Below, in pieces: positions 55,696-60,062 of a stretch of DNA of 64,000 nt (positions are counted from its first letter, which is position 1; every line of letters starts with the position of its first letter). The stretch comes from Bdellovibrio bacteriovorus W. Its GTDB lineage: Bacteria > Bdellovibrionota > Bdellovibrionia > Bdellovibrionales > Bdellovibrionaceae. The notes beneath the pieces were generated by a model. That model worked only from the letters and a program-made list of their open reading frames with translations. It did not search any database and was not told the origin of the DNA. The translations under genes and the position numbers were made by a program. The stretch spans positions 744,001 to 808,000 of the forward strand of contig CP002190.1 of assembly GCA_000525675.1 (NCBI GenBank), written 5' to 3'.

Positions 55696-55762
55696 TCGAG
55701 ATCATTGATTGAAAAGTCTGGCTAAGTTCAGTAGCCTGAAGGCTGTTATAAAGGAGAGGCTC

Positions 55763-57334
55763 ATGATGAGACTTTTTGCAGCAAGCTTGATTTTGGCCCT
55801 CGTTGCAGGGTGTGCCCACAAGGATGGGGGTAACAACGGGACCAGAACAACAGGATCTGGCTCTACGTCAGAATCAGATTTAAAAGATATTGCCTCGTTC
55901 AGATTGTCAGACCCAGAGGGTCCTAAGGTTGTCGATCAAGAATTAGAATCTATTCCTACTGAAGTGAATCCGTTGGTTGAAAAGTGGATTGCTTATTTTC
56001 AAGGAAGAGGCCGTCCTCACATGGAACGCTATTTAGCGCGTTCAACTCGTTATGAAAAACTAATGAAGAAAGTTTTACGAGATAACGGTTTACCAGAGGA
56101 CCTTTTCTACATCGCCTTGATTGAATCAGGATTCAGCGCAAAGGCGACTTCCCATGCAGCTGCTGTAGGTTACTGGCAGTTTATTCGTGGTACCGGAAAG
56201 CGCTATGGTTTAGAGATCAACTCATTTATCGATGAACGTCGTGACCCTGTATTTGCAACTCAAGCAGCTGCTGAGTATTTCAAAGGTCTCTATAGCGTGT
56301 TCGGATCTTGGTATTTAGCTATGGCTTCTTATAACGTCGGTGAAAACCGTGTTAAACGTGAGGTGATGAATCACTACACGAGAGATTTCTGGGAGCTAGC
56401 GAGAAAGAAACGTTTCCCAGCTGAGACGATCAATTACGTTCCAAAGTTTATCGCGGCTAAGATGATCGGTAAAGATCCGGCAAAGTATGGTTTTGATGAG
56501 ATCGACTACTTACCACCGATCGAGTTTGATCATGTGACTGTTAAAACCGCAGTGAATCTTCGTCAGATGGCAGAAAAAATGAACATCAACTACGAAGACT
56601 TCAAAGCATTGAATCCTAAATTCCGCGGTGAAGTAGCTCCGTTAAGATCGACAGAGCTAACTCTGAGAGTACCTCCTGGAATGACGGAGAGTGCAACTGT
56701 AGCAGCGCTTGAGAGTGTTGTTCAGAATGTTCAGTTCGTTGCGGACTCTGGAGAAACTCAAACATATCGCATTCGCCCTGGTGATAACTTAAGTTCAATT
56801 GCAAAACGCTACCGCACAACGGTTGCGTACTTAAGAGACATCAACAACCTTCCGCGTAAGCAGCCGCTTCGTGTGGGGATGAGATTACAGGTTCCTGATC
56901 GTACTCCACTGAAGAGTCGTCCTGCGGCAGCGGCACCATCACGCCAAGTGGCTAAGTCAAAAGCTCAGTCTCCAGCGGTTGGTCAAAAGGTTGCAACTCC
57001 AGATGGACGTTACTACATCGTACAATCGGGAGATTCACTATTTTCAATCGCAAAGAAATACAACACAACGGTTGCTGAGTTACAAAAAATCAACAGCATC
57101 CGCAGAGGTCGTGTTTTAAAAGTTGGAATGAAACTTAAAGTTCCAGGCATGGATAGCACAGCAACTCGTGCAACATCTAAAGCGAAAGTTCACGTAGTTC
57201 GCCGCGGAGAGAATCTTTCCCTAATCGCAGCTAAGTATAAAGTGACGACAGCGGACTTGAAGGCAAATAATAAGCTTCGCAATCCGTCCTCTCTAGCTGT
57301 TGGCGAGAGAATTGTGATTCCCTCTGAGAACTAA
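55763..57334 (+). CDS. mltD: Membrane-bound lytic transglycosylase MltD-like with three LysM domains
   Basis: 523 aa from the ATG at 55763 (AAAGGAGAGG upstream). Lipoprotein signal with lipobox LVAGC. The catalytic domain at ~90-230 has FYIALIESGFSAKATSHAAA with catalytic Glu, VGYWQFIRGTGKRYGL, and LAMASYNVGENRV. Three LysM modules follow: YRIRPGDNLSSIAKRY, YYIVQSGDSLFSIAKKY and HVVRRGENLSLIAAKY, separated by basic Pro/Ala linkers. It anchors to a membrane and cuts glycan strands. Follows slt after ~65 bp and ends at a strong terminator. Confidence 0.93.
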   Translation: MMRLFAASLILALVAGCAHKDGGNNGTRTTGSGSTSESDLKDIASFRLSDPEGPKVVDQELESIPTEVNPLVEKWIAYFQGRGRPHMERYLARSTRYEKLMKKVLRDNGLPEDLFYIALIESGFSAKATSHAAAVGYWQFIRGTGKRYGLEINSFIDERRDPVFATQAAAEYFKGLYSVFGSWYLAMASYNVGENRVKREVMNHYTRDFWELARKKRFPAETINYVPKFIAAKMIGKDPAKYGFDEIDYLPPIEFDHVTVKTAVNLRQMAEKMNINYEDFKALNPKFRGEVAPLRSTELTLRVPPGMTESATVAALESVVQNVQFVADSGETQTYRIRPGDNLSSIAKRYRTTVAYLRDINNLPRKQPLRVGMRLQVPDRTPLKSRPAAAAPSRQVAKSKAQSPAVGQKVATPDGRYYIVQSGDSLFSIAKKYNTTVAELQKINSIRRGRVLKVGMKLKVPGMDSTATRATSKAKVHVVRRGENLSLIAAKYKVTTADLKANNKLRNPSSLAVGERIVIPSEN

Positions 57335-57410: not shown

Positions 57411-58502
57411 TTATAAATCTCGAATACTGAGAAACTCAATGGCTGCTTTGATTTTCTGAATCGAGAGATTGCGTTCAGGAGTGGCTGTACCTTCACGAAC
57501 TTCGTAGCGTCTTCCTTGATACAAGTAGTACATATAGTCTTGAAGAGTCTCTTCTGAAATATCTGGATGTTGATGAGCCATGTTGCGCAGTTCTTTGATT
57601 TGCACAGCTACAAAGGCCAAGGTTGTTACCGCAGCATTTTCAGGAACCTTTAAATCACTTTTTTCGATCTTATAGTGTTCGCTAATAACTGGTGGAATCT
57701 GTTTAATCTGAGTAGGCCCACGGCTGTTATGAGAAGTATCTAAACCATTGCCTTTTAGAATAGATACCACAACTGGGGCTGTTTGTTTGAGTTGGTATTT
57801 CCAGTTACTACCAAAATCTGTTTCAGGTGAGAGGACGCCAAAAGCAAATTCAGCGAGCATGTTGTATTCGTCGTTATCAATCTTTAGGAGTTGCATCAAA
57901 GTTGCTTTTTCATTTTGCAAAGTGCGCACATAGCGTTTTGAAAAGGAATCCGTAGCTGCGACCTCGAATTGGCTTTGGCGAACTTTTAGATTGCTTGGAG
58001 AGTAGTTGAAGTCAGGACGATGGCGCAGAACTTTAGCCGCATTAAAAATCAACTCTTCATTGCGTAGACGGAATTTATGATCTGCAGACTCAGGGAGAAG
58101 GTAGATCGGCGTTCCCGCCGCGAGTTGAACTTCTCCGAAGAAAAGCCCGCGAATCTCTTCGTCACTTTGAGTTCTACCATAGGTATAAGAAGACTTCGTC
58201 CCAGCAAAATAGTAAATGCCGGCTCCGCCTTCGTCTTTTTCGTCTCCTGGGTAAGTGGTTACTTTTTCTTGTTTCAGAATTTTACCAGCACGATCATAGA
58301 CTTTAAGAGTTTTCGTTTTCTTATCTACGATAGCAAAGTCTGAAGGATTTAACTCTCGGTGATAGAAAGAGATGATCTCTGTATTTGATTTCTGATTCAG
58401 CTCGTTACGGATCTTTGCATAGTCTTGAAAACTTTCGAATTGCACAGCCCATGCACTGGGGGCAATGGCGAGGGTTATAAAAGCAGTTATCAGTTTTTTC
58501 AC
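57411..58502 (-). CDS. Exported protein combining a degenerate YkuD-like half and a transglycosylase-like half
   Basis: 363 aa with signal peptide (APSAWA, ~20). Residues ~50-150 resemble the start of a YkuD domain (FAIVDKKTKTLKVYDRAGKI, then AGIYYFAG) but the His...SxGC active-site segment is absent. Residues ~210-300 look like a lysozyme-like fold: LAEFAFGVLSPETDFGSNWK with a candidate Glu, and NSRGPTQIKQIPP where transglycosylases have SxGxxQI. Rest helical. This could be a peptidoglycan-binding or cutting protein; neither activity is certain. Convergent with mltD. Confidence 0.6.
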   Translation of the reverse strand: MKKLITAFITLAIAPSAWAVQFESFQDYAKIRNELNQKSNTEIISFYHRELNPSDFAIVDKKTKTLKVYDRAGKILKQEKVTTYPGDEKDEGGAGIYYFAGTKSSYTYGRTQSDEEIRGLFFGEVQLAAGTPIYLLPESADHKFRLRNEELIFNAAKVLRHRPDFNYSPSNLKVRQSQFEVAATDSFSKRYVRTLQNEKATLMQLLKIDNDEYNMLAEFAFGVLSPETDFGSNWKYQLKQTAPVVVSILKGNGLDTSHNSRGPTQIKQIPPVISEHYKIEKSDLKVPENAAVTTLAFVAVQIKELRNMAHQHPDISEETLQDYMYYLYQGRRYEVREGTATPERNLSIQKIKAAIEFLSIRDL

Positions 58503-58662: not shown

Positions 58663-58706
58663 AAAAAAAAAGCTTGCGAGTACTCTTCAATGAACTCTCG
58701 CAAGCT
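58663..58706 (-). terminator. Intrinsic terminator of the c-di-GMP riboswitch RNA
   Basis: On the minus strand AGCTTGCGAG and CTCGCAAGCT (58671-58680 with 58697-58706) form a 10-bp perfect stem followed by nine T. No ORF lies between the aptamer and this terminator. Confidence 0.88.
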
Positions 58707-58880
58707 AAGGGGAATGAAACCAATCCTTGAATGTATTTTTTCCTTCCATAAGCAGACCTCTAATTCCGCAGGTTTCTCACCTTTGGCAGCTGGCTGACGT
58801 GGTTGCATTGCGCAGACCGACACCCCTTTAGCTTTGCGTCCCGCTGTTTCCAACGGTTTGCCTTGAGGCAAAGGAAGGAT
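58663..58880 (-). ncRNA. Free-standing c-di-GMP-I (GEMM) riboswitch RNA, merRNA-like
   Basis: The aptamer at 58780-58874 (minus strand) has the c-di-GMP-I hallmarks: GGCAAACC, a P2 helix CCGTTG-GAAA-CAGCGG closed by a GNRA tetraloop, then GGGACGCAAAGC. The outer helix P1 is CCTTTG (58874-58869) with CAAAGG (58785-58780). About 75 nt after the aptamer the RNA ends at an intrinsic terminator, and no gene follows on that strand: the next is the 363-aa gene, whose start is 160 bp beyond the terminator. In B. bacteriovorus a very abundant attack-phase RNA of this class (merRNA) has been described and proposed to bind or store c-di-GMP; this looks like its homolog. The upstream boundary is approximate because I cannot place the promoter. 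Confidence 0.82.
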
Positions 58881-58926
58881 CTAAATCCTAACGAGTCTAA
58901 CCCTAGGAACCTCCTTTGAGCTAATG

Positions 58927-59049: not shown

Positions 59050-59209
59050 CTTGTGTCCTCCTCGTATCTGTCTTGATGACATTTACAGGTTAGCTGGACT
59101 TTTGGGGAAGTTTCAAGGCAGGGGCTTTCGATTATCAAAATAGGTCGAAATAGTGTTTAGCTCTGAGATTGCCTTAGAAAAATAAGATTTGAAATGTTCC
59201 AAGCAGATA

Positions 59210-59267: not shown

Positions 59268-60062
59268 CTATGGAAGAATTGTGCGAATTTGTTCAGCGAT
59301 GCGCATGAACTCTTGGGCTTCAGCGCCATTTGCATTGGCTTCGACAATTGGAATACCAGCTTCACACGCAAGACCCACAGAAGGGTTGAATGGAACTTCG
59401 CCGATTTTCTTGAAGCCTTTTGCTTCAGCGTATTTGTCGATTTCTCCCTTAGGGAAGAGCTGCATTTTTTCGCCATTTACCGGGTTGATCATATAGGCCA
59501 TGTTTTCAATCATACCTAGAACCGGAACGTTCACGCGCTCATACATATCAACTGCTTTTTTCACGTCAAGCAACGCAACGTTTTGCGGAGTTGAAATGAC
59601 CACAGCTCCTGCCACAGGAACTTTTTGCGCAAGAGTTAATTGGATGTCACCAGTGCCCGGTGGAAGATCGATAAGAAGATAATCAAGCTCGCCCCAGTTC
59701 ACATCGCGAAGGAACTGATCCATTGCTTTAAAGAGCATCGGGCCACGCCATACCACTGCTGAGTTTTCTTCGATCAAGAAGCCAATACTCATTAGCTTGA
59801 TGCCGTAGCGAGTGATGGGCTCTAGCTGGTTTGTTTCAGGGTTAATTTGAGGTTTTTGTCCGAGAGTTCCTAACATTCGAGGAATGCTCGGTCCGTAAAT
59901 ATCAGCATCTAAAAGACCCACTCTCGACTTTTTACCAAGAGCCATTGCGAGGTTCGTTGCAACCGTGCTTTTACCAACACCGCCCTTACCAGAACTGACG
60001 GCAATAATATGTTTCACTCCGGGAATTGGGGTCTGTTTTTCGAACGGATTTGGGGCTGCCAT
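59268..60062 (-). CDS. mrp: Mrp/ApbC/NBP35-family P-loop ATPase, without the CXXC iron-sulfur motif
   Basis: 264 aa. Family proteins carry and transfer Fe-S clusters. The deviant Walker A SSGKGGVGKSTVATNLA is at ~24, followed by LLDADIYGPSIPRM (switch I), DYLLIDLPPGTGDIQL (switch II) and STPQNVALLDV. In most Mrp proteins the segment after IENM reads as a CPHC-type cysteine pair; here it reads AYMINPVNGEKMQLF with no cysteines. The N-terminal DUF59 domain found in many Mrp proteins is also absent. ATPase function looks intact, while classical cluster binding is doubtful. Confidence 0.88.
   Translation of the reverse strand: MAAPNPFEKQTPIPGVKHIIAVSSGKGGVGKSTVATNLAMALGKKSRVGLLDADIYGPSIPRMLGTLGQKPQINPETNQLEPITRYGIKLMSIGFLIEENSAVVWRGPMLFKAMDQFLRDVNWGELDYLLIDLPPGTGDIQLTLAQKVPVAGAVVISTPQNVALLDVKKAVDMYERVNVPVLGMIENMAYMINPVNGEKMQLFPKGEIDKYAEAKGFKKIGEVPFNPSVGLACEAGIPIVEANANGAEAQEFMRIAEQIRTILP

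Follow-up and report, generated by a model that had tools for sequence, protein, structure and literature searches.

A free-standing c-di-GMP-I riboswitch RNA of Bdellovibrio bacteriovorus W: support for a merRNA orthologue with a conserved leader peptide gene

The locus and its aptamer

Our study concerns a c-di-GMP-I riboswitch RNA encoded on the reverse strand of the Bdellovibrio bacteriovorus W chromosome, within a window of 64,000 nucleotides (GenBank contig CP002190.1, positions 744,001 to 808,000) to which all coordinates below refer. A cmscan of the 64-kb window with Rfam 15 returned one match, to RF01051, of 57.2 bits (E = 1.5e-8), well above the gathering score of 35 bits, which spans model positions 1-87 and hence the full length of the family; it is the single RF01051 match in the whole 3.0 Mb genome. 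The covariance model thus bears out the aptamer proposed in a preliminary description, which had been made from the letters alone. That account called the aptamer nearly canonical, and this holds for the GAAA tetraloop; it does not hold for the tetraloop receptor in P3, where the consensus CUAA is absent. P1 is closed by CCUUUG/CAAAGG, with UCCUUCC/GGAAGGA as an alternative extension. Given this atypical receptor, nanomolar affinity cannot be assumed.

Position 20 of the aptamer, which we take to be the G of the GGC/GGU that precedes the A-rich junction, is a G in essentially all members of the order. A GEMM-Ib riboswitch selective for cGAMP becomes a binder of c-di-GMP through the exchange A20G (PMC6456294), and the G found here is consistent with c-di-GMP, rather than cGAMP, as the predicted ligand.

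The aptamer is flanked by a candidate promoter on its 5' side and by an intrinsic terminator, whose U run lies 114 nt past the aptamer end. The upstream gene is mrp (ORF 59268-60062), and the next gene on the same strand (57411-58502) begins 160 nt downstream of the terminator. The view that the RNA ends at a terminator without a gene stands as far as the terminator and genes of ordinary length are concerned; it overlooked two mini-ORFs, one on either side of the aptamer (Table 1).

Table 1. Features of the c-di-GMP-I RNA locus in the order of transcription.
Feature	Position in window	Strand	Detail
Predicted promoter	59116-59087	-	-35 TTGAAA (59116-59111), 18 nt, -10 TAACCT (59092-59087)
Shine-Dalgarno of mini-ORF 1, GAGGAGGACAC	59053-59063	-	from sequence
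Mini-ORF 1, MQDRIYDHRDGPPK-stop	59049-59005	-	5' of aptamer; from order comparison
Start-less AGGAGG box, within CAAAGGAGGUUCC	58910-58915	-	37 nt 5' of aptamer
P0 5' strand UCCUUCC	58873-58879	-	overlaps P1 5' strand CCUUUG (58874-58869)
c-di-GMP-I aptamer (RF01051)	58782-58872	-	cmscan
Mini-ORF 2, MEGKNTFKDWFHSP-stop	58749-58705	-	weak Shine-Dalgarno UAGAGGUC at 58762-58755
P0 3' strand GGAAGGA	58741-58747	-	pairs with 58879-58873; about 30 nt past aptamer
C-rich box UUUCAUUCCCCUUAG	58705-58719	-	just 5' of terminator; near-invariant in family alignment
Intrinsic terminator	58706-58663	-	10-bp stem, then nine U; hairpin about -17.6 kcal/mol

Relationship to merRNA and distribution

One of the genomes compared (G006, 3,782,950 bp) we recognised as that of B. 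bacteriovorus HD100. Its sole RF01051 match, at 1,073,951-1,073,868 on the reverse strand, falls within the published merRNA, and this agreement of coordinates supports the identification. HD100 merRNA is a 445-nt RNA (1,074,185-1,073,741, reverse strand) that reaches 2,038,479 RPKM in the attack phase against 407 in the growth phase, a difference of about 5,000-fold, with reads roughly equal to those of all protein-coding genes together (Karunker et al., 2013; PMC3627812). It was described as non-coding and proposed to hold c-di-GMP, with no conserved downstream ORF and no conservation beyond the Bdellovibrio lineage (PMC3627812); in stator mutants it is reported to be down-regulated (PMC11323537, published in 2024).

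The window locus can be aligned with HD100 merRNA from promoter to terminator, and the two share the aptamer, its single copy, the order of the elements, the upstream mrp gene and the terminator. They differ in the 5' leader, which is shorter in the window, and in the end of its small ORF, where the window keeps GPPK and HD100 has DDELK. The alignment and the position of the single-copy HD100 element inside merRNA support the window locus as the merRNA orthologue, as the preliminary description had suspected when it saw here the counterpart of the attack-phase RNA.

The comparison also extends the RNA. The interval first assigned to it, 58663-58880, takes in the aptamer and the 3' part and lacks about 200 nt on the 5' side, because HD100 merRNA starts 234 nt upstream of its aptamer and the -35 and -10 elements of the window align with the promoter regions of merRNA in HD100 and in other members of the genus. 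The window RNA is accordingly expected to run from about 59080 to 58663 as one transcription unit of some 420 nt. The published HD100 5' end lies 22 nt past a -10-like TATCCT, and from this gap the true start in HD100 may be about 15 nt further 5'.

No genome of the phylum has more than one RF01051 match; 137 of the 369 genomes carry one, among them 89 of the 141 that belong to the order. In 82 of these 89 the aptamer is followed by a hairpin and U run resembling a terminator, and in 40 an upstream mrp gene was identified on the same strand. The downstream neighbours change: of the 84 loci with an identified next ORF (counting ORFs of at least 80 aa, some of them possibly spurious), 61 have it in convergent orientation, and 57411-58502 adjoins the RNA in just three other genomes. 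Together, the terminator and the changing neighbours indicate that the RNA is free-standing by inheritance and not in the window alone, in agreement with the initial reading. At the level of sequence it is a stand-alone transcript that ends at its terminator, and the conserved regulated gene that would mark the 5' leader of a cis riboswitch is missing. Control of 57411-58502 by terminator read-through, for which its strand and its closeness to the terminator would speak, is highly improbable given the strength of the terminator and the inconstancy of this neighbour.

In the window, 55709-57334 encodes a lytic transglycosylase with LysM repeats, and a relative is the next gene after the RNA, mostly convergent, in nearly 30 other genomes (cluster c0). 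Parts of the neighbourhood are therefore old, despite the altered gene order.

Predicted leader peptide, start-less box and closing helix

A scan for short ORFs led by a Shine-Dalgarno sequence, run with no filter on the peptide, recovered one shared small ORF upstream of the aptamer in most members of the order. This mini-ORF 1 is present in 64 of 88 usable order loci (G038 and G074 having been added by eye) and was not found in the other 24, which include genera g6 and g34 and family f6. Within most of the genus the AGGAGGAC preceding its ATG is kept. The peptide takes the forms MKNRIHDHHDEPPK-stop and ...DEAPK-stop in the genus, with MRTHEHHDDELK-stop in HD100; elsewhere in the Bdellovibrionaceae it ends in ...HNDKSPK, ...LADPKPK or ...LADPGYE, and in families f4 and f10 in ...WRLDPPPK or ...ADPPPE, that is, in DPPP[K/E]-stop. 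The HD100 clade has lost the prolines and ends in DDELK-stop. A second scan retained only peptides with certain endings and may therefore inflate the conservation of the last codons; the unfiltered scan lists the same peptides.

Codon variation in mini-ORF 1 follows the pattern of a coding sequence. In f4 and f10 together the mean pairwise diversity at codon positions 1, 2 and 3 is 0.21, 0.11 and 0.55, and synonymous changes make up 67.5% of the codon differences, against 20% after column permutation and 6-8% in the other frames; in the genus the figure is 50.3% against 21.1%. None of 300 controls reached the observed value in either comparison, neither of which is corrected for kinship. All three stop codons are in use in f4 and f10, and every proline codon occurs in all four synonymous forms. 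The pattern GAYCCNCCNCCNRAGTRR identified the merRNA locus in 17 of 17 whole genomes and matched one other place, with a single match for the reversed control. These data support protein-level selection on mini-ORF 1, which is, judged by its codons, a translated leader peptide gene that much of the order has kept. By the same measure, seen in the relatives of HD100 and in the window, the label non-coding does not fit merRNA. Where the published RNA was described as non-coding and confined to the Bdellovibrio lineage, the RNA described here has two mini-ORFs, a 5' half with a predicted leader peptide and an order-wide distribution.

The end of the peptide suggests what its translation might do. 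A Shine-Dalgarno sequence, a short ORF and a conserved C-terminus at the stop are the features of ribosome-arresting leader peptides, and all are present here. Without EF-P, ribosomes stall strongly at PPP when D, E, K, Q or R comes before it (PMC4176338), and EF-P is encoded in the genome; the end of mini-ORF 1 is consistent with EF-P-dependent stalling in many lineages, the HD100 clade excepted. Because that clade has no prolines and mini-ORF 1 is missing from 24 of 88 loci, polyproline stalling cannot be essential everywhere. The proline codons could pair with what lies downstream of the stop; this hairpin scored above shuffled sequence, not above partner-swapped controls.

The last codon of mini-ORF 1 is AAG or GAG in the great majority of loci. 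In f1, f4 and f10 it is never GAA and rarely AAA, while the other codons vary at the third position. Some loci arrange their ORFs differently. One in family f2 (L006, genome G045) has tandem leader ORFs 5' of the aptamer, MAKVKIFRLDPPPE-stop and MKLHSKQWNLFPPPI-stop, both with PPP before the last residue. Two in family f6 (L005 and L017, genomes G041 and G048) encode a short RNA in which a promoter-like sequence lies only some 40 nt upstream of the aptamer and mini-ORF 1 is missing; here an AAGGAGG-led proline-rich ORF follows the aptamer (MDITPIFRPPYPPP... and MDTMPIFSPPTPPP...) and extends into a terminator with a poly-C loop.

Between mini-ORF 1 and the aptamer lies a second conserved Shine-Dalgarno-like element. 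AGGAGG occurs 12-75 nt before the aptamer in 73 of 88 order loci, against a same-strand background of 9 in 1,468 windows (0.6%). It does not appear to serve a start codon, since just 10 of the 73 loci have one 4-12 nt further on, against 16 in a shifted control.

Around the aptamer itself, UCCUUCC and GGAAGGA can form a further helix, P0. One outer pair is C-G in 45, A-U in 7, U-G in 3 and U-A in 2 of 58 family members, and in f10 the helix reaches up to 9 bp (AAUCCUUCC/GGGAGGAUU). In the window's family shuffled 3' parts give a mean helix score of 12.0 and partner swaps reach at most 16.6, below the mean of 16.8 for the native helix; in f4 and f10 the native mean lies above the shuffles and not above every partner swap. 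The data support P0 as a covarying helix that closes the aptamer, with all partner swaps surpassed in the window's family only.

A competing arrangement can be drawn in which AAAGGAGG, containing the box, pairs with CUUCCUUU and dissolves P1 and P0. With the two states forced, the P0 fold is lower by 4.4-5.8 kcal/mol in the three cores compared, a gap that makes a ligand-tipped equilibrium a plausible, predicted possibility; the unconstrained minimum-energy fold of the HD100 core contains neither state. As the box is nearly constant, the AGGAGG/CUUCCUU alternative shows no covariation. Folds also show the AAGGAGG box paired with a 3' CCCCUUA box, a pairing that was set aside for want of covariation.

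On the 3' side, the Bdellovibrionaceae encode AUGGAAGG...DWFHSP-stop after the aptamer. The ATG of this mini-ORF 2 is in frame with the FHSP box in 43 of the 46 family loci that have both, with variable spacing, and in the window's family the final base of the start codon and codons 2-3 lie within P0. Its C-terminal codons are invariant at third positions too, which makes an RNA-level role of UUUCAUUCCCCUUAG likely in addition to coding and protein-level selection on mini-ORF 2 less certain. A counterpart is absent from f4 and f10, and we do not regard mini-ORF 2 as an order-wide gene.

Model for a translated c-di-GMP reservoir, and its alternatives

We favour, as the probable though by no means assured explanation, that the window RNA is a merRNA orthologue acting as a c-di-GMP-binding reservoir, coupled to translation through its folding and stability, and that it is neither a classical cis switch nor purely non-coding. 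Binding of c-di-GMP would stabilise P1 and P0; without ligand, the AAAGGAGG box would pair with CUUCCUUU and P1 and P0 would dissolve. With ligand bound, this competition should leave the AGGAGG box accessible and the start of mini-ORF 2 covered; once the ligand is lost, the opposite is expected. In most lineages the x-P-K/E-stop or DPPP[K/E]-stop end of mini-ORF 1 would slow the ribosomes that translate it, and these may shield the 5' part of the RNA and contribute to its extreme attack-phase abundance. The abundant RNA would then hold c-di-GMP, as Karunker et al. proposed (PMC3627812).

The simplest alternative is that merRNA does no more than bind and store c-di-GMP, its mini-ORFs serving transcript stability only or being relics. 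The extreme abundance in HD100 attack cells (PMC3627812), the free-standing layout with its terminator and the several lineages that do without mini-ORF 1 all fit a pure store. Binding, however, needs neither peptide-level selection across the order nor an AGGAGG box distributed more widely than the ORF, and we consider this alternative unlikely. The conservation of a predicted translated leader ORF together with a start-less Shine-Dalgarno box points beyond an inert sponge.

Less likely still is that the RNA is a ribosome trap that retains 30S or 70S particles in non-growing attack cells by means of its Shine-Dalgarno sites and an arrest-type leader, with c-di-GMP setting the number retained. 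The three Shine-Dalgarno-like sites (one having no start codon), the DPPP[K/E]-stop leader and a transcript whose HD100 reads rival those of all protein-coding genes (PMC3627812) could be understood in this way; against it, the HD100 peptide has no prolines, and the start-less box could be merely a pairing partner of P1/P0. In its fullest form, which we would put forward as speculation with the odds well against it, merRNA would be ribosome-engaging rather than a passive store: the aptamer would expose or hide the arrest leader and the box, c-di-GMP would set how many ribosomes are parked, and they would be released on prey entry.

That the C-rich box UUUCAUUCCCCUUAG pairs with the Shine-Dalgarno regions of mRNAs under c-di-GMP gating, making merRNA a trans-acting regulator, strikes us as very doubtful. 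Its near-invariance in the family exceeds the needs of coding, and its place just 5' of the terminator would suit such a role, but the box is not kept in f4 and f10 and it also encodes the end of mini-ORF 2. A CsrB-like sponge for CsrA is hardly credible: csrA is present in the genome and, as in CsrB and RsmZ, an abundant stand-alone RNA carries several AGGA motifs, but its 12 GGA motifs compare with 9.1 +- 2.2 in dinucleotide shuffles, numbers are near expectation in most relatives, and a CsrA-sponge role is thus left unsupported.

The window RNA can be set beside two known kinds of RNA. Stalling ORFs precede regulated genes in the proline-codon leaders of mgtA and mgtC and in the TnaC and Erm leaders. 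The window RNA shares with these a short Shine-Dalgarno-led ORF, a conserved C-terminus right before the stop and a position 5' of a structured sensor; it differs in that no structural gene follows and that stalling is here a prediction. With RF01051 (GEMM-I) riboswitches it shares the full-length match, the G at position 20 and the GAAA tetraloop, and it departs from them in its atypical P3 receptor and in having no regulated downstream gene. It would be unusual for a metabolite aptamer to be joined to a leader peptide with no ordinary gene to regulate. In the open-access literature searched, we found no description of the coding leader, the start-less box or the order-wide distribution, and nothing relevant on leader peptides in the setting of merRNA. 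Few transcripts of Bdellovibrio attack cells are as abundant as merRNA, whose function has been a question since 2013; the conservation of the RNA across the order, with its predicted leader peptide and start-less box, turns the sponge question into features that can be mutated separately in HD100, namely the start codon, the last codons, the box, P0 and the binding residue.

Elsewhere in the phylum, five loci (L103, L105, L104, L096 and L094, in genomes G307, G312, G315, G322 and G337) show a c-di-GMP-I RNA followed by a hairpin of the GGGGGGUCCCC...GGACCCCC type, a second G+C-rich hairpin and then a conserved gene of 224-245 aa that resembles queE, the radical SAM 7-carboxy-7-deazaguanine synthase.
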